Part shown: in pieces, positions 10,632 to 27,602 of the stretch
Numbering within the stretch: the first letter of the stretch is position 1
Layout: each line of letters opens with the position of its first letter
Assembly: GCA_017994695.1 (NCBI GenBank)
Contig: JAGOKF010000032.1
Span: forward strand, 1 to 39,964
Source: Myxococcota bacterium
GTDB lineage: Bacteria; Myxococcota_A; UBA9042; DTJE01
Direction of reading: 5' to 3'
DNA length: 39,964 bases
The notes under the pieces: generated by a model
The model's database searches: none
Seen by the model: the letters and a program-made list of their open reading frames with translations, nothing else
Told to the model about the DNA's origin: nothing
Translations under genes and position numbers: made by a program

Positions 10632-11354
10632 GTGGACCCGGTGGAACGCATTCTCGAGGCCTCGGATCGACTGAAGCGGCAGGTGGCGACCCTCGCCTTC
10701 GGCCCGCCCACGGCCCTGGTGCTGAATCCCCTGGAATACGCGTGGCCCATGTGGGAGGCCTACTGCCGCCGCTATGCACGGCCAGGGGTCGAGGCGGTCC
10801 TGCTGGGGATGAATCCCGGGCCCTTCGGCATGGCCCAGACGGGAGTCCCCTTCGGGGCGGTCCCGGTGGTGACCGGCTGGCTGGGGATCCGGGAACCCAT
10901 CCATCCTCCTCCGGTGCAGCACCCGAAGAGGCCCGTCGAGGGACTGGCCTGCCGCCGGGTCGAGGTGAGCGGCCAGCGCCTGTGGGGGTGGGCGATGCGC
11001 CGCCACGGGACCCCCGACCGGTTCTTTGACCGGTTCTTCGTCGCGAACTACTGCCCCCTGGTCTTCCTGGAATCCTCGGGGCGGAACCGGACCCCCGACG
11101 CCCTGCCGACCGGGGAGCGGGCGGCCCTGTTCGACGCCTGCGACCTCGCCCTCCGGGACATCGTGCGGGCCCTGGGCGCACCGCGGGTCGTGGGCATCGG
11201 GGCCTTCGCCGAGGGAAGGGCCCGGGAGGCTCTCCGGGGAACCGGGGTCCAGGTGGGACGGGCCCTCCATCCGAGCCCCGCCAGTCCCCGGGCCAACCGG
11301 GGCTGGGAGGAGGCCTTCGAGGCCGACCTCCGGGTCCTGGGCCTGGACCCCTGA
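10632..11354 (+). CDS. SMUG1-type uracil-DNA glycosylase
   Basis: A 240-residue cytoplasmic base-excision repair enzyme that removes uracil and some oxidised pyrimidines from DNA. Motif 1 is GMNPGPFGMAQTGVPFG (residues 59-75), identical in form to animal SMUG1, with the catalytic Asn61. Motif 2 is HPSPASPRAN, with His213. The GTG start at 10632 was chosen for its AGGGAGG ribosome site and because homology begins soon after; the frame is open far upstream, inside the GH31 gene. It is probably co-transcribed with GH31, but no functional link is evident. Confidence 0.93.
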   Translation: MDPVERILEASDRLKRQVATLAFGPPTALVLNPLEYAWPMWEAYCRRYARPGVEAVLLGMNPGPFGMAQTGVPFGAVPVVTGWLGIREPIHPPPVQHPKRPVEGLACRRVEVSGQRLWGWAMRRHGTPDRFFDRFFVANYCPLVFLESSGRNRTPDALPTGERAALFDACDLALRDIVRALGAPRVVGIGAFAEGRAREALRGTGVQVGRALHPSPASPRANRGWEEAFEADLRVLGLDP

Positions 11355-11382
11355 ACTTCCCGTTTCCCCAGGCGGCATTGCC

Positions 11383-11404
11383 CCTGGAGGGCTTTGCCTC
11401 CAGG
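11383..11404 (+). terminator. Hairpin after the GH31-SMUG1 unit
   Basis: CCTGGAGG (11383-11390) and CCTCCAGG (11397-11404) form a perfect 8-bp stem with a six-base loop, 29 bases after the SMUG1 stop codon. The following CCCTTCCTT is pyrimidine-rich but not a true T-run. It is the best terminator candidate in the window. Confidence 0.5.
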
Positions 11405-11422
11405 CCCTTCCTTCGATAGACT
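11394..11422 (+). promoter_or_regulatory. Possible promoter of the giant Cys-rich lipoprotein
   Basis: TTGCCT (11394-11399) and TAGACT (11417-11422) each match consensus at four of six, with an ideal 17-base spacer. Transcription would start near 11429, 44 bases before the ATG. The -35 box overlaps the right arm of the upstream terminator hairpin. Confidence 0.35.
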
Positions 11423-11472
11423 CGTCGGGTGGCACTTGGGCGGAAGGGCTTCCCTGTCCAGGAGGTGAGCGG

Positions 11473-14400
11473 ATGAGTCGGCACCCTGCGCCATGTCTCG
11501 TATTGGTGGCGATGCTGTTCCTCGGCGTCGTGTCCTGTTCCTCCTCCCAGGGAGGCGGCGACTTGACGGATCCGGGGACCGTCGATCCGGGGATCGATGC
11601 GGCCCTCCCGGACCTCCTGCCCGAAGTGCCCCTGGACGTGGATGCGGGGACCGAGGGGATCCGGGATCCCGGCCAGGACACCGCCGTGGCGATCCCGTGC
11701 TCCAACCCGAAGAACTGCGAGGCGCTGCTGGAGGAGGGCGCCCGGCCATGCCAGGAGCCGTTCTGCGGGTCCGACGGGTTCTGCCGGTGGGCGCCCCTGC
11801 CCAACGGGACGGCCTGCGACGACGGGGACCCCTGCACGCTCTCGGACCAGTGCCGCCGGGGATCCTGCATCGGTCGCCCGGCGGACTGTGACGACGGCAA
11901 TGCCTGCACCGCGGATCGCTGCGGTCCCGACGGGGCCTGCGTCCACGACCCGGTCGATGGCTCCTGCGACGACGGCAATGCCTGCACCGCCGACGACCGC
12001 TGCGTGGACGGCCGGTGCCAGGGTGGGGGCAACGAGTGCCCCTGCATCGGGGACGGGGACTGTCCGGACGACGGCGATCGCTGCAACGGGGTGCTGCGGT
12101 GCGTCCAGCAGGTCTGCGTCCTCGACCCCGACTCGATCGTTCGCTGCGACCCCTCGGACTCCCCCTGCTCGGAGAGCCGCTGCCAGCCCGAAACCGGCCG
12201 GTGCGAATCGGAGCCGGTCCGGGAAGGGGCGCCCTGCGATGACGGGAACGCATGTTCCTTCGGGGATCGCTGCCAGCAGGGGGTTTGCGGCGGGACCACG
12301 ACGGTCTCCTGCGACGACGGAAACCCCTGCACCGACGATTCCTGCGATGCCCGCCGGGGCTGCGTCCATGCCTTCAACGAGGCCCCCTGCGACGACGGCA
12401 ACGCCTGCACGGAGGCGGACATCTGCCGCCAGGGAGCCTGCATGGGCCGACTGACGCCCCGCTGCGGCTGCCGGGTGGACGAGGACTGCGCGGTCCTCGA
12501 GGACGGCAACCGCTGCAACGGGACGCTCACGTGCCAGGAGGGCTTCTGCCGGGTGGATCCCCTGACGGTGATCGTCTGCGACACCACGGGACTGGGGCCC
12601 TGCCGCACCGCGATCTGCGATCCCGGATCCGGGGCCTGCGTCCTGGGGAACCTGGCCGACGATCGCCCGTGCGACGACGGCGATGCCTGCACGCCCAACA
12701 GCCTGTGCCGGGATGGGAACTGCGTCGGGGTCGGGGATCGCATCGTCTGCGACGATGGAAATGACTGCACCACCGAACGGTGCGAGTCCGCGGTCGGGTG
12801 CGTCTTCGAACCCAGGTCCGGGGCCTGCGAGGACGGAAACCTGTGCACCGAGAACGACTTCTGCCAGGACGGGCGCTGCCGTGCCGGCACGGACAGGGTC
12901 TGCTTCGACGGCAACGCTTGCACCGACGACCTCTGCGAACCCCTGCTGGGCTGCGTGTTCCCGTACAACGAGGCTCCTTGCGACGACGGGGACTCCTGCA
13001 CGCTGGGCGACCAGTGCCTGCAGGGAAGGTGCCGGCCCGGTCCCCGGGATCCCTGCGACGACGGGAATCCCTGCACGACGGATTCCTGCAATGCGGACCA
13101 GGGCGGGTGCGTCCACGTGGCGAACTCGGACCCCTGCGACGACGGGGACTGGTGCACGGTGGGAGACGTCTGCGTCCAGCAGGTCTGCCGGCCGGGAACC
13201 CCCAGGGACTGCTCGGACGGCAATCCCTGCACCGAGGACGTCTGCGACCCCGAGGCGCGGGAGTGCGCCTGGCCGGCCGACGACACGGCCGCCTGTGACG
13301 ACGGGAAGGCCTGCACCGACGACTTCTGCATGGGCGGCCAGTGTGTCGGGGTGCTGAACTGCGACGACGGGAATCCCTGCACCCGGGACTTCTGCGATCC
13401 GGAAACGGGCGACTGTCGGACGGAGGCCATCGAGGCCCCCTGCGACGACGGGGACCCCTGCACGGTGGAGGACGCCTGCACCGGCGATGCCCTCTGCCGG
13501 GGATTCGCCAAGGACTGCGAGGACGGGAATCCCTGCACCGTGGATTCCTGCGAACCCGAAACGGGCAGGTGCTTGAACGAGGATGTCCCGGTCGATGACG
13601 GCGACCCGTGCACGATCGACTCCTGCGACGCCGCCACCGGGGAGATCACCCACGTGCCCGTGGAATGCTCCAACCACGACGCCTGCGACGGCATCGAGAC
13701 CTGCAACCCGATGACGGGCCAGTGCGTTCCCGGGATCCCCGTCCGGTGTGACGACGGCGATCTCTGCAACGGCCTGGAGGCCTGCAACCCCTCCTCGGGG
13801 AGATGCGAACCGGGAATCCCGCTGGACTGCGAGGATCACAACCTCTGCACGCTGGACCAGTGCCTCCCGGCCTCGGGCTGCAAGAACACCCCGCTGGTCG
13901 GGACCACCTGCAACGATCGGGACCCGTGCACCGTGGACGACCGCTGCCTGGCGGACGGGGAATGCGGGGGGCGGCCCGTCGAGTGTTCCGACGGCGATGC
14001 CTGCAACGGGATCGAGACCTGCGACCCCCTGTCGGGATCCTGCGTGACCGGGGTGCCGATCCAGTGCGACGACCTGGACGTGTGCAACGGGATCGAGACC
14101 TGCGACCCCGCGACCGGGAAGTGTGTCCCGGGGCCGGCCCTTCCCTGCGACGACCAGAACCCGTGCACGGACGATTTCTGCGACCGCGTCACCGGCTGCT
14201 ACCACCAGGACAACACGGATCCCTGCGAGGACGGGCTGGCCTGCACCGTCGGGGATCAGTGCGGGGGCGGCATCTGCCTGTCGGGGGGCCAGAGGAACTG
14301 CGACGACGGGATCGCCTGCACCGACGACGATTGCATCGAGCCCGGAGGATGCGTCCACCTGCCGAATGACGGGGCCTGCGAGGAAGGCAATCCCTGCACC

Positions 14401-17346
14401 GAGAACTTCTGCGACGTCGCCGCCGGGGGCTGTCGCTACCGGGACCGGAACGGGCAGCCCTGCGACGACGGCAACGCCTGCACGGTCAACGACCAGTGCC
14501 TGTTCACGCTGTGCCTGGGAATGGGCCTGACCTGCAGCGACGGCATCGCCTGCACGGAGGACTACTGCGACCCGGCGACGGGATGCCGCAACGATCCGGT
14601 CCACGAGCGGTGCGAGGACCGGAATCCCTGCACCGACAACCTCTGCGATCCGGACCAGGGAGGGTGCGTCTTCCCGGACAACGAGGACCCCTGCGACGAC
14701 GGCAATCCCTGCACCCTGGGGGACCGGTGTGGGCTCGGGGAATGCATCGGCGGGACCAGGGACCCCTGCGACGACCACGTGGGCTGCACCGAGGACTTCT
14801 GCCAGGACTTCTTCGGGTGCCGGCACGTCCCGGTGGACGACCTCTGCGACAACGGGAACGTGTGCACGATGGATTCGTGCGACGAAACCCTGGGATGCCG
14901 ATACGAACTCCTGACGGGAGGTCCCTGCGACGACGGGGATCCCTGCACGCGGAGAGACCTGTGCGAACAGGGACGCTGCATGGGATCGGACCCGGATCCC
15001 TGCGACGACGGCGTGGACTGCACCCTCGATTCCTGCATCGCCCGATCCGGCTGCCAGCATGTGCCCTCGAACGACCGGTGCGACGACGGGGCCTCGTGCA
15101 CCTTCGACGTCTGCACCAACGAGGGCTGCCAGTGGATGCCGAGGGACTCTTTGTGCGAAGACGGGAACGCCTGCACCCAGGACTTCTGTGTCGGTGCCGG
15201 GGAGCCGGGCACCGGATGCCTCCACGTCGCCCTGGACGGACTGCCCTGCTCGGACGACGACTTCTGCACCGAGGAGGACCGCTGCGTCGAAGGGCGCTGC
15301 ACCGGATTCCCGGTTTCGTGCGACGACGGCCTGGCGTGCTCCGAGGACTCCTGCGATCCCCTCTCCGGGTGCCTGAACATCCGGAATGATGCCCTGTGCG
15401 ACGACGGGATCCCCTGCACCCGCGACCGGTGCACGACCGACGGCTGCTTGTCGGAACCGGACGACTCCCTCTGCAACGACGGCATCTCCTGCACGGACGA
15501 CTTCTGCATTCCGTCCCTGGGCGGGTGCGTCGTCGTGCCGGTGGACTTCCGCTGCGACGACGGGACGTCCTGCACGGATGACCGGTGCGACCCCGAAGCG
15601 GGGTGTATCTGGACGTCTTGGGACAACCTCTGCGACGACGGGGTTCCCTGCACGACGGACCAGTGCGTTCCGGGAGTCGGCTGCCGGAACACGCCGGACA
15701 TTGCGATGTGCGACGACGGGATCGGCTGCACGCTGGACTACTGTGACGTCTCCATCCGGGATTGCGCCCACGTTCCCCAGGACGGCGTCTGCGACGACGG
15801 GCTGATCTGCACCACCGACACGTGCGATCCCTCCCAGGGGAGTCCCGGCACCGGCTGCCGGAACGAGGCGAACCCGTCCATCTGCGACGACGGCAATCCC
15901 TGCACCGAGGATCTCTGCGGCCAGGGAGGTCCGGCTCCCCTGGGATGTTCCTACGGGAACAAGAACGACGTCCCCTGCGACGACTCGGACCTCTGCACGC
16001 TGGGAGACGCCTGCTTCGGCGGGCGGTGCATTCCCGGAACCGTGGACTGCGGCAGGCCCGAGTGCGGGAACCACTCCTGTGATGACGAGGACGTCTGCAC
16101 GATCTCCTCGAGATGCCTGTACCAGGGGGATGGACAGGGCATCTGCACCTTCGGCGTCTCGGCGTGCGACCGCCCCGACTGTGCCGGGTACGCCTGCGAC
16201 GACGGGGACCCCTGCACGATCGCCGAGGCCTGCGAGGCCGACGGCACCTGCCTGGGTCACGGGCGGGCCTGCTGGAACCCCGAGTGCGCCGCTCACCCGG
16301 ACTGCCCCGAGGCGGACTGCTTCGACGGGGTGGACGAGAACCTGGACGGCCGGACCGACTGCTGGGATCCCTCGTGCCGCTACAAGGCCGGCTGCCTGGT
16401 GTCGGTGGACTGGTGCCGCCTCCAGTGGCCGCTTCAGATCACCACCGTGGAGGGGGCTCCGACGACGGTCTATGGCCGGGTGTACGTGCAGGGGATCACC
16501 ACGGTGAGCGGAGGCATCGACCCCTATCCGACCCTGGTGGCGGAGGTGGGATACGGGCCCTGGGGATCGGACCCCAGGGATGGCGGCTGGTCGTGGTTCC
16601 AGGCCAGGGGCAACCACGACTACGGACCCGACAGCCCCTCCTACGAGGCCTCGAACGACGAGTACCTGGCGAATCTTCCCGGTTCCCCGCCGCCCGGGTC
16701 GGACTACGCCTTCCGGTTCAGCGGGGACAACGGGAGCATCTTCCTCTACTGCGATCGGGACGCCCGGGGCGACGGCCGGGGCGACGGCAGCGCCGACGGA
16801 TACGATCCCCAGGACGCCGGGAAGATGATGTCCTACCCGAACCTGTACTTCAGCGAGTACGTGGAAGGATCCAGCAACAACAAGGCCCTGGAGATCCACA
16901 ACGCCGGGAGCGTCGCCGTGCTCCTGTCGGACATCATGATCCGGATCTACTTCAACGGTGCCGTCACTCCCGGGGCCTCCATCACCCTCGGTTCCTCCGG
17001 CTCCCTGGCCCCGGGCGGGGTCTTCGTGCTCTGCAACTCCTCGGCAGGGGCAGGGCTCCTGTCTCTGTGCAACGGGGTGTCCGGGAGCCTGACCTTCAAC
17101 GGGGACGACGCCGTGGAACTGCTGGGCCCGGGGCAGGTCGTCCTGGACGTCATCGGGCAGATCGGGTTCCGGCCCAGCGTCGAGTGGGGAAGCGGACTGG
17201 TGTCCACGGCGGACAACACGATCCGGAGGAAGTGCACGATCCACCAGGGAGACCGGAACGGCGGGGACGTCTTCGACCCGGCCCTCGAATGGGAGGGCTT
17301 TTCGGTGGACACCTTCAACGGACTCGGGAGCCGGGGATGCCTTTGA
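11473..17346 (+). CDS. Giant Cys-rich repeat lipoprotein with C-terminal lamin-tail domain
   Basis: A 1957-residue exported protein. AGGAGGTGA (11460-11468) five bases before the ATG is a full anti-Shine-Dalgarno match and points to strong translation. The signal peptide ends in GVVSC (Cys22). After an acidic linker, residues about 114-1600 hold roughly 50 units of the type C-D-D-G-[ND]-x-C-T-x-x-x-C, on the order of 200 cysteines, which implies oxidative folding outside the cytoplasm. A DGVDENLDGRTDCWD motif follows. Residues about 1645-1785 form a domain common in myxobacterial surface proteins but of unknown role. Residues about 1788-1957 look like a lamin-tail domain (FSEYVEGSSNNKALEI), with the TIRRKC...GDRNGGD ending seen beside some extracellular nucleases. 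A long rigid stalk carrying a binding domain is my inference. Confidence 0.92.
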   Translation: MSRHPAPCLVLVAMLFLGVVSCSSSQGGGDLTDPGTVDPGIDAALPDLLPEVPLDVDAGTEGIRDPGQDTAVAIPCSNPKNCEALLEEGARPCQEPFCGSDGFCRWAPLPNGTACDDGDPCTLSDQCRRGSCIGRPADCDDGNACTADRCGPDGACVHDPVDGSCDDGNACTADDRCVDGRCQGGGNECPCIGDGDCPDDGDRCNGVLRCVQQVCVLDPDSIVRCDPSDSPCSESRCQPETGRCESEPVREGAPCDDGNACSFGDRCQQGVCGGTTTVSCDDGNPCTDDSCDARRGCVHAFNEAPCDDGNACTEADICRQGACMGRLTPRCGCRVDEDCAVLEDGNRCNGTLTCQEGFCRVDPLTVIVCDTTGLGPCRTAICDPGSGACVLGNLADDRPCDDGDACTPNSLCRDGNCVGVGDRIVCDDGNDCTTERCESAVGCVFEPRSGACEDGNLCTENDFCQDGRCRAGTDRVCFDGNACTDDLCEPLLGCVFPYNEAPCDDGDSCTLGDQCLQGRCRPGPRDPCDDGNPCTTDSCNADQGGCVHVANSDPCDDGDWCTVGDVCVQQVCRPGTPRDCSDGNPCTEDVCDPEARECAWPADDTAACDDGKACTDDFCMGGQCVGVLNCDDGNPCTRDFCDPETGDCRTEAIEAPCDDGDPCTVEDACTGDALCRGFAKDCEDGNPCTVDSCEPETGRCLNEDVPVDDGDPCTIDSCDAATGEITHVPVECSNHDACDGIETCNPMTGQCVPGIPVRCDDGDLCNGLEACNPSSGRCEPGIPLDCEDHNLCTLDQCLPASGCKNTPLVGTTCNDRDPCTVDDRCLADGECGGRPVECSDGDACNGIETCDPLSGSCVTGVPIQCDDLDVCNGIETCDPATGKCVPGPALPCDDQNPCTDDFCDRVTGCYHQDNTDPCEDGLACTVGDQCGGGICLSGGQRNCDDGIACTDDDCIEPGGCVHLPNDGACEEGNPCTENFCDVAAGGCRYRDRNGQPCDDGNACTVNDQCLFTLCLGMGLTCSDGIACTEDYCDPATGCRNDPVHERCEDRNPCTDNLCDPDQGGCVFPDNEDPCDDGNPCTLGDRCGLGECIGGTRDPCDDHVGCTEDFCQDFFGCRHVPVDDLCDNGNVCTMDSCDETLGCRYELLTGGPCDDGDPCTRRDLCEQGRCMGSDPDPCDDGVDCTLDSCIARSGCQHVPSNDRCDDGASCTFDVCTNEGCQWMPRDSLCEDGNACTQDFCVGAGEPGTGCLHVALDGLPCSDDDFCTEEDRCVEGRCTGFPVSCDDGLACSEDSCDPLSGCLNIRNDALCDDGIPCTRDRCTTDGCLSEPDDSLCNDGISCTDDFCIPSLGGCVVVPVDFRCDDGTSCTDDRCDPEAGCIWTSWDNLCDDGVPCTTDQCVPGVGCRNTPDIAMCDDGIGCTLDYCDVSIRDCAHVPQDGVCDDGLICTTDTCDPSQGSPGTGCRNEANPSICDDGNPCTEDLCGQGGPAPLGCSYGNKNDVPCDDSDLCTLGDACFGGRCIPGTVDCGRPECGNHSCDDEDVCTISSRCLYQGDGQGICTFGVSACDRPDCAGYACDDGDPCTIAEACEADGTCLGHGRACWNPECAAHPDCPEADCFDGVDENLDGRTDCWDPSCRYKAGCLVSVDWCRLQWPLQITTVEGAPTTVYGRVYVQGITTVSGGIDPYPTLVAEVGYGPWGSDPRDGGWSWFQARGNHDYGPDSPSYEASNDEYLANLPGSPPPGSDYAFRFSGDNGSIFLYCDRDARGDGRGDGSADGYDPQDAGKMMSYPNLYFSEYVEGSSNNKALEIHNAGSVAVLLSDIMIRIYFNGAVTPGASITLGSSGSLAPGGVFVLCNSSAGAGLLSLCNGVSGSLTFNGDDAVELLGPGQVVLDVIGQIGFRPSVEWGSGLVSTADNTIRRKCTIHQGDRNGGDVFDPALEWEGFSVDTFNGLGSRGCL
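11812..16260 (+). repeat. Tandem Cys-rich coding repeats, about 50 units
   Basis: The array encodes about 50 degenerate units of some 25-35 residues built on C-D-D-G-N-P-C-T-x-D-x-C, often followed by G-C and a short variable linker. A few units depart from the pattern (C-N-G-I-E-T-C at 13690-14100, and two C-N-G-x-L-x-C units). At DNA level the core recurs as TGCGACGACGGCAAC-like strings, but third positions vary, so the array is old or selected rather than freshly amplified. Confidence 0.9.
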
Positions 17347-19349: not shown

Positions 19350-21743
19350 CTAGCAGATACAGGCGACGGGGTTGGTGTAGCATGCCCAGACACAGACCGC
19401 ATCGCCGGTCTTGAACGAGGACCAGCAGGAACCGTTGGAGCAGCCGTAGTTGCAGCAGGAGTTCCAACCGACGCAGTTCTGGATCTGGGAGCCGTGGCGG
19501 TCGCAGGAACCCGTGGACCCGCAGGCCCTGTCCTGCCGGACCACCGATCCGTCGCAGTAGCGGCCCACGAAGCACACGGCCCCGGCGCAGGCCGACGGGT
19601 CGTCCACCGCCCGGGACCGGCAGGCGAAGGAATCGTTGCAGTAGCCCTCGGTCCGGTGTCCCCGGCATTGCCCGGGGGCATCGCAGGTGGGGGGAGCGTT
19701 CAGGGCCTGACAGTCCTCGCCCGAGGCGCAGCAGAGGTCCCCGACCGCCCCGCAGCAGTGCCCGTTGGAGCAGTAGTCCTGGGCGCACTCCCAGGCGCTG
19801 GAGCAGGTCCCGCCCGGAGGGACCTTGGGCAGGCACTCGTCCTGCCGGCCGTCCCGGTCCAGGTCGTTCCCGTCGCAGAAGAAGCCGGCCCGGCAGTCCT
19901 CCGCCCGCTGGCAGGAGATCAGGCAGCCCCCCGTTCCGCCGCAGGCGTAGTCTCCGCACTGCCACTCCGTCCCCTCGTCGGTCGCGGCGTTGCAGTTGTC
20001 GTCCAGTCCGTTGCACACCTCGGTGGCGCCTGGATACCGGGCGGGGTCGCAGGGCGCGCAATCCACCAGGTCCAGGGCCCCGTCGTTGTCGTCGTCCGGG
20101 TCGCAGGCATCCCCAGGTCCGTCGCGGTCGCAGTCCGCCTGGTCGGCGTTGGGAGCCAGGGGACAGTTGTCCTCGGCGTCCGGGATGCCGTCATTGTCGT
20201 CATCCAGGTCACAGGCATCCCCCAGGGTGTCCTGGTCGAAGTCCTGCTGGCCGGGATTGTAGACCTCGGGACAGTTGTCCCTCTCGTTGACGATGGCGTC
20301 TCCGTCCAGGTCCGGGTCGCAGGCGTCCCCTAGGCCGTCCAGGTCCAGGTCCCTCTGCTCCGGATTGGCGTGTTGCAGGCAGTTGTCCCGGTCGTCGGGC
20401 ACGCCGTCCCCGTCGCGGTCCGGGTCGCAGAGGTCGCCCAGGCCGTCCAGGTCCAGATCCTCCTGGCCGGGATTCGGGATGTCCGGGCAGTTGTCCTCCA
20501 GGTTGCCCACGCCGTCCCCGTCCCGGTCGGGGTCGCAGGGGTCTCCCAGGCCGTCGAGGTCCAGGTCCCGCTGGCCGGGGTTGGCATTCCCGGGGCAGTT
20601 GTCCCGGTCGTCGGGCACGCCGTCCCCGTCCCGGTCGGGATCGCAGAGATCGCCCAGGCCGTCCCGGTCCAGGTCCTCCTGGAGGGGATTCCGGGTGTCC
20701 GGGCAGTTGTCCTCCAGATTGCCCACGCCGTCCCCGTCGCGGTCCGGGTCGCAGGGGTCGCCCAGGCCGTCCAGGTCCAGGTCCTCCTGGGCGGGATTCG
20801 GGATGTCCGGGCAGTTGTCCTCCGGGTTGCCCACGCCGTCCCCATCCATGTCGTCGTCCACGCAGTCCCGGATCCCGTCCCGATCCCGGTCCGGGAAGTC
20901 CTCGTCGGTGAGCCCGTTGCAGTTGTCGTCCTGGCCGTTGCACTCCTCGGCCGCGGGAACCCGGCCCTGGCAGGGAGCCCACCCGCCGGAACCCAGGCAT
21001 TGCTGGGTTCCCGGGCAGGACCCGTGGGAGTTGACTACCTGGCAGGCCCGTTCCCGGCCGCCATCCCGAGGGGCCCTGCAGGCGCAACTGCCCGTTTCCG
21101 GGAGGCACCATCGCTGCCCCTGGGGATCGGGATCGCAACGGAAGCCGATCGGGCACCCGTGGAGATCGTCGCAGGCGACCGAGCACCGGCGTCCGTCCGC
21201 CCCCTGGTCCCGGCAGACCCCCTGGTCGGTCTTGCAGTCGCCGTTGGATTCGCAGAGGGAGCAGATGGCCCAGAAGGAAGGGGCGCAGATGAAGACCGGA
21301 TCGGACCCCGAGATGGGCGTTCCCCGGCAGACCCAGCCTTCGGGGCAGCGGTCCAGGCAGAAGGCGGTGCAGACGCCTCCCGCCCCGGTATCCAGGCACA
21401 GGCCGCTGCGGCAGTCCTGCATGGTCGAGCAGGGATCGCCCATGCCTCCGGTGGTGGGCCCGGCATCCTCGACGGGATCCGTCGCCGGATCGCCGGAAGA
21501 CGCGTCGTGAGGCACGGGAAGATCACCCGGGACTTCCGGGAGGGATCCGTCGGGGCGATCCACGAGGCCGGACGAATCGGGGACTTGCTGGCCCGGATCC
21601 CGGAGGTCATCGGCAAGATCCCCCGTCGGGGGGGATCCGGTGTCGTCGAGCGGGCTCCCCCCGCCGCCGCACCCGGGAAGACCCGCCGCCAGAAGGACCG
21701 CCATCACGGTCCAGGGAACCGAACAAAACCTCGGGCCGCTCAT
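19350..21743 (-). CDS. Lipoprotein with thrombospondin type 3 repeats and MopE-like motifs
   Basis: A 797-residue exported protein. The ATG at 21743 was chosen for its AGGAGG ribosome site and because it gives a clean signal peptide ending in GLPGC (Cys25). A Cys-rich segment with spaced disulfide-like pairs precedes C-N-G-Q-D-D-N-C-N, a motif typical of MopE-like and myxobacterial surface proteins. Seven 36-residue thrombospondin type 3 units (D-x-D-G-D-G-V...D-N-C-P...D-C-D-P) follow, expected to bind calcium and form a stiff rod. A second C-N-G-L-D-D-N-C-N and a Cys-rich C-terminal region (about 570-797) end the protein. No enzyme domain is recognised. It is divergent from the SGNH gene and shares its -10 element. 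Confidence 0.9.
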   Translation of the reverse strand: MSGPRFCSVPWTVMAVLLAAGLPGCGGGGSPLDDTGSPPTGDLADDLRDPGQQVPDSSGLVDRPDGSLPEVPGDLPVPHDASSGDPATDPVEDAGPTTGGMGDPCSTMQDCRSGLCLDTGAGGVCTAFCLDRCPEGWVCRGTPISGSDPVFICAPSFWAICSLCESNGDCKTDQGVCRDQGADGRRCSVACDDLHGCPIGFRCDPDPQGQRWCLPETGSCACRAPRDGGRERACQVVNSHGSCPGTQQCLGSGGWAPCQGRVPAAEECNGQDDNCNGLTDEDFPDRDRDGIRDCVDDDMDGDGVGNPEDNCPDIPNPAQEDLDLDGLGDPCDPDRDGDGVGNLEDNCPDTRNPLQEDLDRDGLGDLCDPDRDGDGVPDDRDNCPGNANPGQRDLDLDGLGDPCDPDRDGDGVGNLEDNCPDIPNPGQEDLDLDGLGDLCDPDRDGDGVPDDRDNCLQHANPEQRDLDLDGLGDACDPDLDGDAIVNERDNCPEVYNPGQQDFDQDTLGDACDLDDDNDGIPDAEDNCPLAPNADQADCDRDGPGDACDPDDDNDGALDLVDCAPCDPARYPGATEVCNGLDDNCNAATDEGTEWQCGDYACGGTGGCLISCQRAEDCRAGFFCDGNDLDRDGRQDECLPKVPPGGTCSSAWECAQDYCSNGHCCGAVGDLCCASGEDCQALNAPPTCDAPGQCRGHRTEGYCNDSFACRSRAVDDPSACAGAVCFVGRYCDGSVVRQDRACGSTGSCDRHGSQIQNCVGWNSCCNYGCSNGSCWSSFKTGDAVCVWACYTNPVACIC
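20097..20852 (-). repeat. Seven 108-bp coding repeats (thrombospondin type 3)
   Basis: The array is exactly 756 bp, seven in-frame units of 108 bp. Units 2-3 (20529-20744) and 4-5 (20313-20528) alternate VGNLEDN and VPDDRDN types, so they form a 216-bp higher-order repeat. Units 6 and 7 have drifted, and a partial eighth unit follows. Confidence 0.9.
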
Positions 21744-21796
21744 GCTGGCCTCCTGCCTGGTGGTGGGAATCACCCGTCCCCGACCGTGATGGTTCG

Positions 21797-21834: not shown

Positions 21835-24150
21835 GTGAGTCCGCGAAACCTCCCGGTTCCCCGGAGAGTGCTGGTCCTGCTCTGGACCGCGATCCTGGCC
21901 CTGGGATGCGGCGGGACCGCGCTCCTGCCGGACGCGGGTCTTCCGGGGGATCCGGGAATCCTGGAAACCGGGGAGGTCCCGGGACTTCCGGAGGATGGCG
22001 GGGCGGATTCCCGGGATGCGGGTTCGCTGCCCAAGGAGGACCTCCCGGGAACAGGGGACGGGACCGGGGAGATCCCCGAGGGTCAGGACGTCGTTTCCTT
22101 TCCGTGCCGGGAACCGTCGGACTGCGAAACCGCGGTGGGACCCGCACCTGCCTGCCATTCCTGGGCCTGTTCCGGTGGCGCCTGCGTGCCGGATCTCCTG
22201 CCCGAGGAAACCCCCTGCGACGACCGGGACGCATGCACCCGGAACGACTTCTGCCGGGAGGGGAGGTGCATCGGGTCTCCGGTCCAGTGCCCCGAGGAGG
22301 CCGGATCCTGCACCGGAAGGGTCTGCGACCCGGGCCGGGGGTGCGTGGACTATCCCAGGACGGGAAACGCCTGCGATGACGGCGACCTGTGCACGGCCGA
22401 GGACCGCTGCATCCTGGGGTCCTGCCGGGGTTCCCCGGTCCGGTGCGACGACGGCGACCCCTGCACGGAGGATTCCTGCGACCCGGCATCGGGATGCCGG
22501 ACGGTCACGATCCCGGGGGCCCCCTGCGACGACGGGGAACCCTGCACGGTGGAGGATGCGTGCCTGGAGGACGGAACCTGCCAGGGGCGCCCCGATGCCT
22601 GCGACGACGACAACCCGTGCACCGACGATTCCTGCACTCCCGGGGTGGGCTGCCTCCACCGGCCGATCCACGGCAGGGCCTGCGACGACCGATCCCTCTG
22701 CACGCTGGACGACCACTGCGAGTCGGGTCGGTGCGTCGGGACCCTGGTGGACTGCCGCGACGGCAATCCCTGCACCCGGGATGCCTGTGACCCGGATTCC
22801 GGCTGCATCCATCCCCCGGCCGACGGCGTGCCCTGCGACGACGGGAATTCCTGCACCGACGTGGACCTCTGCCTGGGCGGGTCCTGCCAGGGAAGGGCCA
22901 CGGCCTGCGAGGACGGCAACCCCTGCTCCCTCGATTCCTGCACCCAGCACTCGGGGTGCATCCACCGCGTTTTGTCGGGGATTCCCTGCGAGGACGGCGA
23001 TGCCTGCACGGTCGGCGATTCCTGTGTCCAGGGGCGATGCATCCCCGGGGGACCCGCGGTGTGCGACGACGGGAATCCCTGCACGGCCGACTCCTGCGAC
23101 CCGGCCCGGGGCTGCCTCCACGATCGCCTTCCGGGGGCGACGCCGTGCGACGACGGCAACGCCTGCACGGCCGCGGACCGGTGCGTCTTCGGGACCTGCG
23201 TCGGCGACTGGACCTCCTGTGATGACCTCAATCCCTGCACGGACGATTCCTGTGACCCCGGCATCGGCTGTGTGCACGTTTCCGCGACCCGTCCATGCGA
23301 TGACGGGGATCCCTGCACGGCCGGCGATTTCTGCGCCGGGGGAACCTGTCATCCCGGGAGGAACCCCCAGTGCCTCGCCATCCGCCGCGTCGTGCTGGCG
23401 GGGGATTCCTGGTCCACGGGCTTCATCCAGCCTCTCCGGGATGCCCTGGACGCCCGGGGGTACGAGGAGGTCGTCGTCTCCTGGGAGACGACTTCGAAGC
23501 CCGGTTCCACCGTGGCCGGCTGGCTGGCGGATCCCGGCCTGATGGGGGCCCTGGCGATGGCTCTGGACATGGAGCCTCTTGCGGGGATGCTGCTGTTCAC
23601 CCTGGGGGGCAACGACTACCTCCGGGCCTGCAACGACGGCCTGGGACTCCTGGACGCCTGGGGATGGTATCTCGCCCTGGGGAGAATCCAGGCGGACCTT
23701 CAGACCTTCGTGAACATCGTCCGCACGGGACGTCCCGGGCTCCGGATCGTGCTGATCGGCTACGACTACCTGAACTACCTGCTGATCGAGGCCCTGTCGG
23801 GGGGCTTCCCGGGGATGGACATGGGCGAGTTCAACCTGGGACTGGTGGAACTGGCCTCCCTGGGAAGGGCCGTGGGGGAGACGACGCCCAACATGGTCTA
23901 TGCCCACAACATGGGGCTGATGCAGCACGTCTTCGGGGATCCGCTGTTCGGGTACGGACCGGGGGCGGCGCCCCGGCCCGGGCCGGCCCCGGGCTATGCC
24001 CCCTTCCCGGGGGGGTGGTGGACCCATCCCAGTCCAGCGGGCCACATCCCCGACGGGATCCATCCGGACTACGCCGGGTTCCGGGCCCTCATCGAACACA
24101 CCCTCGACCAGGGGCCGGCGGCATTCATCGAGGGGCGTCCCTGGCCCTGA
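21835..24150 (+). CDS. SGNH/GDSL hydrolase lipoprotein on a Cys-rich repeat stalk
   Basis: A 771-residue exported protein expected to hydrolyse esters such as O-acetyl groups on glycans, or lipids. The GTG start at 21835 has GAGG nine bases upstream and follows the palindromic -10. The signal peptide ends in the classic lipobox LALGC (Cys25). Residues about 126-510 hold about 15 C-D-D-G-N-x-C-T units of the same kind as in the giant protein. The C-terminal hydrolase shows GDSW with nucleophile Ser525, GGND with Asn593, and D-G-I-H with Asp740 and His743; the block II Gly was not placed. The next gene follows after 62 bases on the same strand. The fusion suggests the repeats hold the enzyme away from the cell surface. 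Confidence 0.92.
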   Translation: MSPRNLPVPRRVLVLLWTAILALGCGGTALLPDAGLPGDPGILETGEVPGLPEDGGADSRDAGSLPKEDLPGTGDGTGEIPEGQDVVSFPCREPSDCETAVGPAPACHSWACSGGACVPDLLPEETPCDDRDACTRNDFCREGRCIGSPVQCPEEAGSCTGRVCDPGRGCVDYPRTGNACDDGDLCTAEDRCILGSCRGSPVRCDDGDPCTEDSCDPASGCRTVTIPGAPCDDGEPCTVEDACLEDGTCQGRPDACDDDNPCTDDSCTPGVGCLHRPIHGRACDDRSLCTLDDHCESGRCVGTLVDCRDGNPCTRDACDPDSGCIHPPADGVPCDDGNSCTDVDLCLGGSCQGRATACEDGNPCSLDSCTQHSGCIHRVLSGIPCEDGDACTVGDSCVQGRCIPGGPAVCDDGNPCTADSCDPARGCLHDRLPGATPCDDGNACTAADRCVFGTCVGDWTSCDDLNPCTDDSCDPGIGCVHVSATRPCDDGDPCTAGDFCAGGTCHPGRNPQCLAIRRVVLAGDSWSTGFIQPLRDALDARGYEEVVVSWETTSKPGSTVAGWLADPGLMGALAMALDMEPLAGMLLFTLGGNDYLRACNDGLGLLDAWGWYLALGRIQADLQTFVNIVRTGRPGLRIVLIGYDYLNYLLIEALSGGFPGMDMGEFNLGLVELASLGRAVGETTPNMVYAHNMGLMQHVFGDPLFGYGPGAAPRPGPAPGYAPFPGGWWTHPSPAGHIPDGIHPDYAGFRALIEHTLDQGPAAFIEGRPWP

Positions 24151-24212: not shown

Positions 24213-27200
24213 ATGGCAACAGGCAGCGGACGAGAGGGGCGTTTCCCCCGAGGATGGGCGGTCCTGGCGATGGCCCTGCTGGCGGGATGCGGCGGGTCCG
24301 GCGGAACCGGAGGTGCGGACCCGGCGGGGTCGGATCCGGGGGATGTTCCGGGGGATGCGATCCGGGTTCCGGACGATGGCAGCGCCATGGACACGGCTCC
24401 GGAAGCGGGCGCCGACATGCCGGAAGACGGGGGCGGCGACGGGCCGGAGGGCGCGGACCCCGGGGAGGAGGGGGATGGTGGCCACGACCCGGGGACGCCG
24501 GACCTCCCCCCGGTACCCGAGGAGATTCCCCCCTGGCAACTGGCCCGGCAACGGGCGCTGCTGGCCCATGCCTGCCAGGCGCCCCTGCGGCCCGGGGACG
24601 TCATCCACCTGCTGGCCCACCTGGCCTGTGCCGAACGACTGGGGATGCCCGGGGTGCCCGCCGGCGCGGTTCCCGACGACGCCTACGACCGGGTGTTCCA
24701 GAAGATGTGGCGTCTGGACGACACCAGCGACTTCGATGCCTTGCGGCTCGTGAACCTCCTGTTTGCGGCTTCGGGACACGAAGCCGTTTCCCCGGTTCTC
24801 TGGCAGCGGATCGAGGAGGCCCTGCTGGGCTTCAAGTACTGGTTCAGCGACCCGACCCCGGCCCGGGAGTGGGAGGGGCGGCCCGTGAAGGACCGCATGT
24901 GGTACTGGTCCGAGAACCACGAACTGGTCTTCCGAACCGTCGAGTACCTGCTGGGGCAGCGGTTCCCGGACCGGACCTTCCAGGTGACCGGCCAGACCGG
25001 TGCGTGGCATCGGGATCGCGCCCGGCGGGAAATCCTCCGCTGGTTCTCGGATCGCGCCCGGTGGGGATTTTCCGAGTGGCTGTCGGACGTGTATTACAAC
25101 TGGGACATGAACCCCCTGATCACGCTGGTCGAGTGGGCCGACGACGAGGAGGTGCGCCGGAAGGCGGCCATCGTGCTGGACCTCGTGTGGCTGGACGTCG
25201 CGTTGAACATCCATCGCGGCAACTTCGGGACCACCCACGGCCGCTCCTACATCAAGGACAAGGCGGCCGCCGTGACCCAGGACACCTTCGACGCCGCCCG
25301 GCTCTTCTTCGACGACACCGACGAGTCCTGGACCGGGGACGCTCCCGGGGCCGCGGTGCTGTTCGCCCGGAGCCGTCATTACGCGATGCCCGATGTCCTG
25401 GTGCGCATCGCCCGATCGCGCGAACCCTTCGAGAACCGCCAGCGGATCGGCCTGCCGATCCCGGAGGAGGCACCGGCCGACCCCGACGATCCCGTCCCGC
25501 CGCCTCCCTACGGCCTCACCTGGGGCGAGGAGCACCTGGCGACCTGGTGGGCGATGGGGGCCTTCACCGCGTGGCCCGTCCTCCCGGTCACGCTGGACGT
25601 CGCGACCCGCTACGACCTCTGGACCGGGTCCTTCGACGCCCTGGGGGCCGTGGCCGGGATGCTGGACCTGACCCAGCCCGTCGAGGTGCTGGTGCGGGAC
25701 CTCCATCCCCTGTACCGGATGTTCTGGCGCGTCTTCAACACGGGTCTGCTGACCGAGGCCTTCGTCCGGACCTGGCGGGGGCCGAACGGCATGCTGTCCA
25801 GCGTCCAGGACTACCGCAAGGGGAGCCCGGCCATGCAGGTCCATGCCTGGCAGGCGACGCTGTCCGAGCGGGCCGTGGTCTTCACCCAGCATCCCGGATC
25901 CCTTCCGGTCGCCCCGGGGGATCCGGTCCCCGCCGACTGGAACTGGCAGGCCTACGACGAGCACGGCGGCGGGTACTGGACCGGCGACGGGTCCCTCCCC
26001 CGCATCGGACAGTCGGGGGATCTGGCCGTGATTCTCTACGCCCCCCAGTTCGAGCCCCGGCCCCTGGGACTCGATGCCGTGAACTGGCGGGACGAGACCC
26101 ATGCCTACTTCCCGGTGGCCCACTTCGACGAGGTCGTGCGGCAGGGCCAATGGACGTTCGGCCGAAAGGGAGACGGGTACGTGGCCCTCTGGTCCCTCCG
26201 GGAACCCTCCTGGCGGGAGGGGCAGCCCGAGGTCTTCCGGAACGACGGAAGACCCTTCGACCTGGTGGCGCCGGGGGCCCAGGCGGTCTGGCTGGTCCGC
26301 CTGGGGGACCGGCAGGAATGGGGCGGTTTCGAGGCCTTCCGGCAGGCGATGGAACAGGGCGAGATCCGGACCGAGCCCCTGGGCGACCGGGACGGGAACG
26401 GATTCCCGGACGGCTACCGGGTGGAATGGGACTCCCCCGGGCGCGGCCGGGTCGTCTTCGGGTGGGACGAACCCCTGGTGGTGGACGGGCGGGAGATCCC
26501 GCTCCGGTGGGAGGAACGCTACGACAATCCCTTCGTCCGCGCCCCCTTCAACGGGACCCGCCAGGACATCCGGGCCGGGGATCGCCGGCTCTTCCTGGAC
26601 CTGGACCGGGAACTGCGCCTCGCGACGCCACCGTCCCCAGAGAACTTCACCGCGGTCACGTTCAACGTCGGGACGCCCCTCTTCGATCCCGCGGCACCCC
26701 CGGGGGGATTCGGCCCCGGGGAGGCCCGGGTGGCGGACCAGTGGTACGGGAACGGCCTGGCCTTCCTGCCGGCGATGGAGGCGGTCCGGGCCTGGCTGGA
26801 ACGGACCGACCCCGACCTGGTGGCGTTCCAGGAGGTCTTCCATCCCGACGCCTGTCCCTCGATTCCGGAGGAGGCCCGGGAGGGCTTCGCCTGCCAGGAC
26901 TGGACCCCCGGGGGGCCGACCGTGATGCAGCGGGTGCTGGGACCCGGGTGGCAGGTGGCCTGTCACCCCGGGAAGCCCGACAAGTGCGCCGCGGTGCACC
27001 GGCGCTTCGGGCGGTTCCGGGGCTGCGGCGAGGATTTCTGCCTGGAGGGCCTTCAGGGGACCACGGTCGAGGGCTGCGGGAAGGGCGCCCGGGTGGCCCG
27101 GGGGGTGATCGATCGCTGGGACGGCCAGGAACCCCTGACCCTGGTTTCGGTGCACGGTTCCTCGGGGATCTCCCCCTCGGACCAGGACTGCCGGGTCCGG

Positions 27201-27602
27201 CAGTTCCGCCAGGTCTTCATGGACCTCGGGGATGGGAGTCCGGGGGCCAACGGGGAGCGGAACCTGATCCTCGGGGATTTCAACACCGACCCCGGCCGGA
27301 TGGCGGAGGTCGATCCCAGCGCGGCCTTCCTCCGGGACTACGTCGGGGAGGATCGCCCCTTCCACTTCGTGACGGACGTCGGGCCCGATGCGACCCCTTC
27401 CTACGGCGGACTGTTCAACATCGACCACCTGGTTTCGGATCACCTGGAGGGGACCTGCGTGACCCCGGGAGTCACCGAGGGCGTCTTGCCGGTGGCGGAC
27501 TTTCCGTGCTTCGATCACCATCCCGTCGCCTGCCGACTTGCCTTTCCCGGCTGGACCGGGCCCGTCCCCGGCGATGGCGGAGGTCCGGCTGCTTCCCGGT
27601 GA
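24213..27602 (+). CDS. Lipoprotein fusing a lyase-like toroid/beta-sandwich region to an EEP phosphodiesterase domain
   Basis: A 1129-residue exported protein. The ATG at 24213 has GGGGGGA just upstream and gives a signal peptide ending in LLAGC. After an acidic linker, residues about 105-530 are helix-rich (with W-Y-W-S-E-N-H-E) and residues about 540-800 beta-rich (with FGRKGDGYVALWS). This layout resembles alpha/alpha-toroid polysaccharide lyases, but I cannot name the family. Residues about 812-1115 form an endonuclease/exonuclease/phosphatase domain with the expected residues: Asn818, Glu874, Asp1022 and Asn1024 in GDFNTD, and Asp1101-His1102 in FDHHPV. It should cut phosphodiesters or phosphate esters outside the cytoplasm. 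Several cysteines suggest disulfides. It converges with the antiporter gene, 25 bases away. Confidence 0.88.
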   Translation: MATGSGREGRFPRGWAVLAMALLAGCGGSGGTGGADPAGSDPGDVPGDAIRVPDDGSAMDTAPEAGADMPEDGGGDGPEGADPGEEGDGGHDPGTPDLPPVPEEIPPWQLARQRALLAHACQAPLRPGDVIHLLAHLACAERLGMPGVPAGAVPDDAYDRVFQKMWRLDDTSDFDALRLVNLLFAASGHEAVSPVLWQRIEEALLGFKYWFSDPTPAREWEGRPVKDRMWYWSENHELVFRTVEYLLGQRFPDRTFQVTGQTGAWHRDRARREILRWFSDRARWGFSEWLSDVYYNWDMNPLITLVEWADDEEVRRKAAIVLDLVWLDVALNIHRGNFGTTHGRSYIKDKAAAVTQDTFDAARLFFDDTDESWTGDAPGAAVLFARSRHYAMPDVLVRIARSREPFENRQRIGLPIPEEAPADPDDPVPPPPYGLTWGEEHLATWWAMGAFTAWPVLPVTLDVATRYDLWTGSFDALGAVAGMLDLTQPVEVLVRDLHPLYRMFWRVFNTGLLTEAFVRTWRGPNGMLSSVQDYRKGSPAMQVHAWQATLSERAVVFTQHPGSLPVAPGDPVPADWNWQAYDEHGGGYWTGDGSLPRIGQSGDLAVILYAPQFEPRPLGLDAVNWRDETHAYFPVAHFDEVVRQGQWTFGRKGDGYVALWSLREPSWREGQPEVFRNDGRPFDLVAPGAQAVWLVRLGDRQEWGGFEAFRQAMEQGEIRTEPLGDRDGNGFPDGYRVEWDSPGRGRVVFGWDEPLVVDGREIPLRWEERYDNPFVRAPFNGTRQDIRAGDRRLFLDLDRELRLATPPSPENFTAVTFNVGTPLFDPAAPPGGFGPGEARVADQWYGNGLAFLPAMEAVRAWLERTDPDLVAFQEVFHPDACPSIPEEAREGFACQDWTPGGPTVMQRVLGPGWQVACHPGKPDKCAAVHRRFGRFRGCGEDFCLEGLQGTTVEGCGKGARVARGVIDRWDGQEPLTLVSVHGSSGISPSDQDCRVRQFRQVFMDLGDGSPGANGERNLILGDFNTDPGRMAEVDPSAAFLRDYVGEDRPFHFVTDVGPDATPSYGGLFNIDHLVSDHLEGTCVTPGVTEGVLPVADFPCFDHHPVACRLAFPGWTGPVPGDGGGPAASR

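Follow-up and report, generated by a model that had tools for sequence, protein, structure and literature searches.

A predicted Myxococcota lipoprotein joining a candidate polysaccharide lyase of an unnamed family to an EEP phosphodiesterase domain

Heparinase III (PL12) and the other members of the heparinase II/III superfamily of polysaccharide lyases (PL12, PL15, PL17, PL21, PL33, PL35, and PL39) combine an α/α toroid with an antiparallel β-sandwich, and an Asn-Tyr-His set in this fold has been described for PL33 (PMC11848413). The catalytic Asn and Tyr residues in toroid lyases are 53-63 residues apart, as computed from the residue table of the PL35 study, and 59 residues apart in chondroitin AC lyase (1RWA) (PMC12088678). 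The endonuclease/exonuclease/phosphatase (EEP) superfamily includes DNase I, sphingomyelinase, inositol polyphosphate 5-phosphatase, and ExoIII. We herein describe a gene (24213-27602, + strand) in contig JAGOKF010000032.1 from an uncultured Myxococcota bacterium, the whole 39,964 nucleotides of which are referred to as the window; all features of this gene are on the + strand. Its predicted product, a two-domain lipoprotein of 1129 amino acids, carries a lyase-like toroid and β-sandwich (the N-domain) followed by an EEP domain. Both domains are probably working enzymes, a polysaccharide lyase and a metal-dependent EEP phosphodiesterase, a judgment that concerns these two assignments and not a shared substrate.

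Residues 100-808 were modeled by AlphaFold2 from an alignment of 74 rows, drawn from relatives in the genome collection, with a mean predicted local distance difference test score (pLDDT) of 95.5 and a predicted template modeling score (pTM) of 0.95. The model consisted of helices followed by an antiparallel β-sandwich, and together with the fold search defined the α/α toroid (residues 107-508; 24531..25736) and the sandwich (residues 509-805; 25737..26627). A Foldseek search of PDB gave ten matches with E values of 0.001 or better: nine polysaccharide lyase chains, the best of which were GAGase II (PL35, 8khv; 1.1e-5) and heparinase III (PL12, 4fnv; 3e-5), and human dermatan sulfate epimerase (6hzn; 2.6e-5). 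In VIA-align, heparinase III (5jmf) was at the top with a Z of 11.7 and a root-mean-square deviation of 7.1 over 414 residues; PL8 (1cb8 and 1n7q; Z of 9.6 and 8.8, respectively) and PL17 lyases came next, and 6hzn gave a Z of 8.2. These values are to be read with the warning of the program that a Z under 8 may come from an arrangement that is common, and that chance can carry predominantly helical models up to 13-14. The lyase families among the best solved-structure matches were PL12, PL35, PL8, PL17, and PL15. We placed weight on the lyase fold because the top of both lists was occupied by one enzyme class, and because of the gene context described below. A viral fold library yielded one unnamed 809-aa protein (E 3e-5) and ODV-E66 (E 0.023), the latter of which is a known chondroitin lyase.

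An earlier note, made from the DNA letters alone, had proposed a polysaccharide-lyase-type layout of an unknown family. The fold prediction and fold search agreed with this proposal, and assigned no known non-enzymatic family to the N-domain. Searches of Pfam, NCBIfam, and PDB sequences all failed to match residues 105-808; the whole protein gave nothing above the cut-off in NCBIfam, and in Pfam Exo_endo_phos alone, in the C-terminal part. A profile of the N-domain retrieved only a β-xylosidase among PDB sequences (E 0.56), which was judged to be a chance match, and a single-sequence PDB search retrieved antibody light chains (E 0.014 and above), which were rejected as not credible.

In one scan, 223 relatives of the N-domain were found, 80 of which were kept for analysis; these were distributed among Myxococcota (including Nannocystis), Pseudomonadota, Bacteroidota, Spirochaetes, Planctomycetota, Firmicutes, Tenericutes, and Lokiarchaeota. 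Rhizobium (123 records), Sinorhizobium, and Haladaptatus joined the list through a search of plasmids, where the annotated records gave a hypothetical protein under the match. No consistent Pfam or NCBIfam family match was obtained for 74 members, nor for four plasmid-borne members. As judged by sequence against Pfam, NCBIfam, and PDB, not CAZy, this is a sizeable, multi-phylum family that is unnamed in Pfam and NCBIfam.

Several residues were strictly or nearly conserved in the family: Glu288, Ser291, Tyr294, Arg344, Gln542, Pro561, and Pro596 in 80/80 sequences, and Asn235, His236, and His630 in 79/80. Among them, Asn235-His236 (24915..24920; motif S/T-E-N-H) are the predicted charge neutralizers, Tyr294 in the motif E288-x2-S291-x2-Y294 (25074..25094) is the predicted catalytic residue, and Arg344 (25242..25244) is a predicted active-site arginine. 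These four were kept in all eleven remote relatives, Gln542 and His630 were not, and the remote relatives had no Pfam match where tested. Beyond the family, remote relatives approximately 580-680 aa in length that share the E-N-H and Tyr motifs form a second layer (L216-L227) in genomes related to that of a Hydrogenedentes locus (L078, see below), with no Pfam or PDB match where tested.

The 59-residue spacing between Asn235 and Tyr294 is within the range of 53-63 computed for toroid lyases; in the heparinase II/III superfamily, the catalytic Asn/His and Tyr are approximately 53-57 residues apart. The N-domain may resemble this superfamily in carrying an Asn-His pair and a Tyr in its toroid at a similar distance. 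The next near-invariant His (His630), however, is located 336 residues after the Tyr, in comparison with 130-166 computed from the published table (PMC12088678), and no β-domain His was found at a matching distance in the N-domain. None of the 74 members matched Pfam Hepar_II_III (PF07940/PF16889) at E values up to 1. Membership in heparinase II/III is not claimed: hhalign against approximately 30 heparinase II/III-type proteins was not significant (probability of 0.3-0.5%). The best stretch of this weak alignment, useful as a lead only, sets Asn-His on Asn-His and places Tyr294 by the heparinase Tyr motif. Chondroitin AC and hyaluronate lyases of PL8 are also similar to the N-domain in fold, and chondroitin AC lyase in the 59-residue Asn-to-Tyr spacing; however, Asn and His are adjacent in the N-domain, whereas the His of PL8 is nine residues before the Tyr. 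Pfam Lyase_8 had no match in the fusion protein or in 74 members; Lyase_8_N had none in 138 relatives, and this search was uninformative because the controls likewise gave none.

The gene context pointed to a lyase. The 4,5-unsaturated uronic acid that lyase cleavage leaves behind is taken off by GH88 and GH105 glycoside hydrolases (GH) and processed further by KduI and KduD. A lyase-like domain was fused to GH88 (PF07470, E 1.6e-60) in locus L035. When the 1.19 Mb of flanks was searched with this GH88, it was present in 16 of the 80 loci (fused in L035 and the immediate neighbor in 15 others, from several phyla), and nowhere in the flanks away from the lyase-like gene. Since the 3.96-Mb genome of the window contains a single GH88, the chance expectation in 1.19 Mb is well under one. 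GH88 was also first among the neighbor Pfams of 19 mostly non-myxobacterial loci, together with sugar transporters, xylose-isomerase-like barrels, and sulfatases. On plasmids of R. johnstonii and R. etli, the lyase-like gene lies directly before GH88, followed by GH28 and an ATP-binding cassette (ABC) transporter, the GH88-linked homologue of R. johnstonii being WP_011649440.1; the lyase-like gene also directly precedes GH88 on Catenovulum and Thioclava plasmids, and the Thioclava locus contains kduD, kduI, and a rhamnose mutarotase gene. On a Salipiger plasmid it adjoins kduI, with kduD and GH88 close by. Annotated plasmids carried pairs of a hypothetical protein and GH88 with ABC or major facilitator superfamily (MFS) transporters. 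The lyase reading is economical because the genes linked to this family (GH88, kduI, and kduD) process lyase products. On the basis of the fold, the near-invariant residues, and the GH88 linkage, the N-domain is very probably an unclassified uronate lyase.

The genome of the window also contains an open frame (G000:C132, L120 2520-6212, + strand) in which GH88 comes after a heparinase II/III-like domain (PF07940). This is likewise a multi-domain lyase-type fusion, but differs from the present protein in having GH88 as its partner and a lyase part of the known Hepar_II_III_C family.

Residues 811-1112 (26643..27548) are predicted from sequence to be an intact EEP phosphodiesterase. Pfam Exo_endo_phos (PF03372) matched residues 845-1049 with an E of 1.6e-6 (28.4 bits versus a cut-off of 24.5), and all 21 EEP relatives matched the same model. 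In the alignment of these 21 Myxococcota domains, Asn818 (26664..26666), the metal ligand Glu874 (26832..26834), the first catalytic His, His981 (27153..27155), Asp1022 and Asn1024 of the GDFN motif (27276..27284), Asp1071-His1072 (27423..27428), and the catalytic pair Asp1101-His1102 (27513..27518) were invariant, as were several cysteines. The core active-site residues of the EEP superfamily, including GDxN and DH, are thus all present. The complete active site given in the earlier note (Asn818, Glu874, Asp1022, Asn1024, and His1102) was found at the positions that it named. The His in a V-x-V-H strand and the final D-H correspond to the pattern of DNase I, sphingomyelinase, and 5-phosphatase, not ExoIII. 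Unlike the named EEP enzymes, the domain belongs to its own Myxococcota subfamily, which is secreted and has conserved cysteines, and a profile search of PDB gave no significant relative (best match ExoIII, E 0.29). No EEP relatives were found in viral contigs. One locus (L132 287-2071, + strand) encodes a tandem EEP-EEP protein, in which a Myxococcota-type EEP is followed by a second, different-looking EEP-type domain.

The open reading frame has 1129 codons, and its bifunctional product is a prediction. The signal peptide (24213..24290) ends in the lipobox LLAGC, with Cys26 invariant in an alignment of 11 relatives, in line with the lipoprotein assignment that had been made previously; the protein is presumably located at the surface. 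Residues 27-104 (24291..24524) form an acidic linker that is rich in Asp, Gly, and Pro and is the least conserved part. A sister genome (contig JAKPOP010000003.1, a Deltaproteobacteria metagenome-assembled genome (MAG)) encodes the same fused protein with 82% identity. A codon comparison of the two copies gave ratios of nonsynonymous to synonymous substitution rates (dN/dS) of 0.12 for the toroid, 0.13 for the β domain, 0.25 for EEP, and 0.39 for the linker; both halves are under purifying selection. The fused sister copy and low dN/dS therefore indicate a real, maintained gene and not a chance open reading frame.

The fusion is real but rare. One match spanning both domains was found in 3/379 Myxococcota genomes (those of the window, its sister, and a third, G008), in agreement with the expectation that this was not a common annotated architecture, and in nearly all genomes with both halves the lyase-like and EEP domains are separate genes. 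In the G008 copy (L022 / L039), the toroid contains an in-frame TAG that may reflect either a genuine disruption or an error of assembly; the rest aligned without a frameshift. In the lyase tree, G008 and the unfused copy of another genome (G002) formed a fully supported group separate from the window pair; therefore, the fusion was either ancestral and then lost, or made twice. A search of the open-access literature found no paper with both "polysaccharide lyase" and "endonuclease exonuclease phosphatase".

A second phosphodiesterase was found behind a lyase domain in a Hydrogenedentes MAG (L078 3155-6040, + strand): PI-PLC-C1 (E 3.2e-75), the only one in that genome. In Catenovulum, PI-PLC and metallophosphoesterase genes are located a few genes downstream of lyase-GH88, and no other PI-PLC was found near the 80 lyase loci. 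The nearest relatives of L078 have unfused frames, except for one that carries a PhoPQ_related domain, and many Myxococcota (35/53 genomes) have a PI-PLC-C1. A general link between the lyase and PI-PLC was rejected, as there was one fusion and one nearby gene only, not repeated in the relatives of L078. In two loci (L070 5400-10061, + strand; L203 1492-4875, - strand), the lyase domain comes after PKD repeats and a PhoPQ_related (PF10142) domain in a fused protein.

If both assignments are correct, the N-domain would use β-elimination to cut a uronic acid bond at C4: Asn235 and His236 would neutralize the carboxylate, and Tyr294, with Arg344 nearby, would handle both the proton at C5 and the leaving oxygen. 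The unsaturated uronide product would normally be removed by a GH88 enzyme. The EEP domain would act as a metal-dependent phosphodiesterase using the His981/His1102 pair, similar to the DNase I and sphingomyelinase branch. Anchored together at the outer surface, the two domains could attack in one place a polymer or mixed matrix containing uronic acids and phosphodiesters; a shared substrate is speculative. Several observations weigh against this two-enzyme reading: the fold matches are remote, at 6-13% identity and a whole-chain TM of approximately 0.2, a structure model of EEP from 3 sequences was poor (pLDDT 40.7), the fusion occurs in only 3 genomes, most Myxococcota loci have a lyase-like gene with no GH88 neighbor, mostly standing alone, and stand-alone EEP genes have no sugar context, their neighbors being unrelated (e.g., kinases and amino-acid enzymes).

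None of the mixed polymers suggested in the earlier note (teichoic acid, a phosphorylated glycan, or DNA in a matrix) found specific support; stand-alone EEPs lie among unrelated genes, and the halves are separate genes in nearly all genomes with both. One tentative possibility is a matrix-clearing pair, in which the lyase cuts an acidic exopolysaccharide and EEP acts as a DNase on the extracellular DNA of that biofilm or prey matrix. Secretion, the DNase I-type His pair, and the conserved cysteines are consistent with this, as is the abundance of stand-alone EEP relatives in Myxococcota regardless of sugar genes, as for a general nuclease; however, no nuclease-specific feature was identified, and ExoIII, the best PDB profile match, is not significant. 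Somewhat more doubtful are two independent enzymes that share a lipoprotein anchor and have no joint substrate: the separation of the halves in nearly all genomes, fused copies that do not form one clade in the lyase tree, and the unrelated neighbors of stand-alone EEPs argue for it, but purifying selection has preserved the fusion since two species diverged.

It is unlikely that both domains act on one phosphodiester-linked glycan, such as a capsule that contains phosphodiesters, or a glycan with glucuronic acid borne on inositol phosphate, as in the glycosyl inositol phosphoryl ceramide (GIPC) of plants or algae. The fusion to the unrelated PI-PLC-C1 in L078 and the Catenovulum genes point in this direction, and the plant GIPC carries a Man-GlcA-Ins-P head group (PMC11496612), a candidate named here as speculation. 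The PI-PLC fusion is, however, a singleton among its relatives, PI-PLC-C1 is widespread in Myxococcota, and the rhizobial and Thioclava loci pair the lyase with GH28 and rhamnose genes, respectively, and no phosphodiesterase. The broader proposal that separate lineages joined this lyase family to different phosphodiesterases (EEP and PI-PLC) because the substrate is a uronic-acid glycan on a phosphodiester, e.g., a glucuronyl inositol phosphate lipid, which would be the first lyase route into such molecules, appears quite improbable. Least probable, and very unlikely, is that the N-domain is no lyase but a uronate C5-epimerase or a non-catalytic binding module: dermatan sulfate epimerase was among the fold matches, but the linkage to processors of lyase products and the near-invariant Asn-His-Tyr-Arg set argue against it.

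Since synteny between the window and the sister genome extends over 20 kb, the neighbors in the window give no specific evidence. Two of them (11026-17343 and 21835-24150, both on the + strand) are rich in Cys repeats, with 15 and 6 stretches, respectively, of the slime-mould repeat PF00526; the latter, just upstream of the fusion gene, has a weak SGNH hydrolase match at its end. A protein on the - strand (19353-21773) has seven thrombospondin type 3 repeat stretches.

Returning to the reading of a lyase joined to a phosphodiesterase, the unnamed lyase-like family is a more important discovery than the fusion itself. It is common on Rhizobium plasmids and present in Haladaptatus and Lokiarchaeota, annotated as a hypothetical protein where the annotation was read, and its residues, fold, and GH88 partner make the lyase chemistry directly testable. 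The EEP fusion and the separate PI-PLC fusion provide a lead on the substrate. Confirmation of the assignment would bring a new family of polysaccharide lyases, and would predict that many organisms use uronic-acid glycans.

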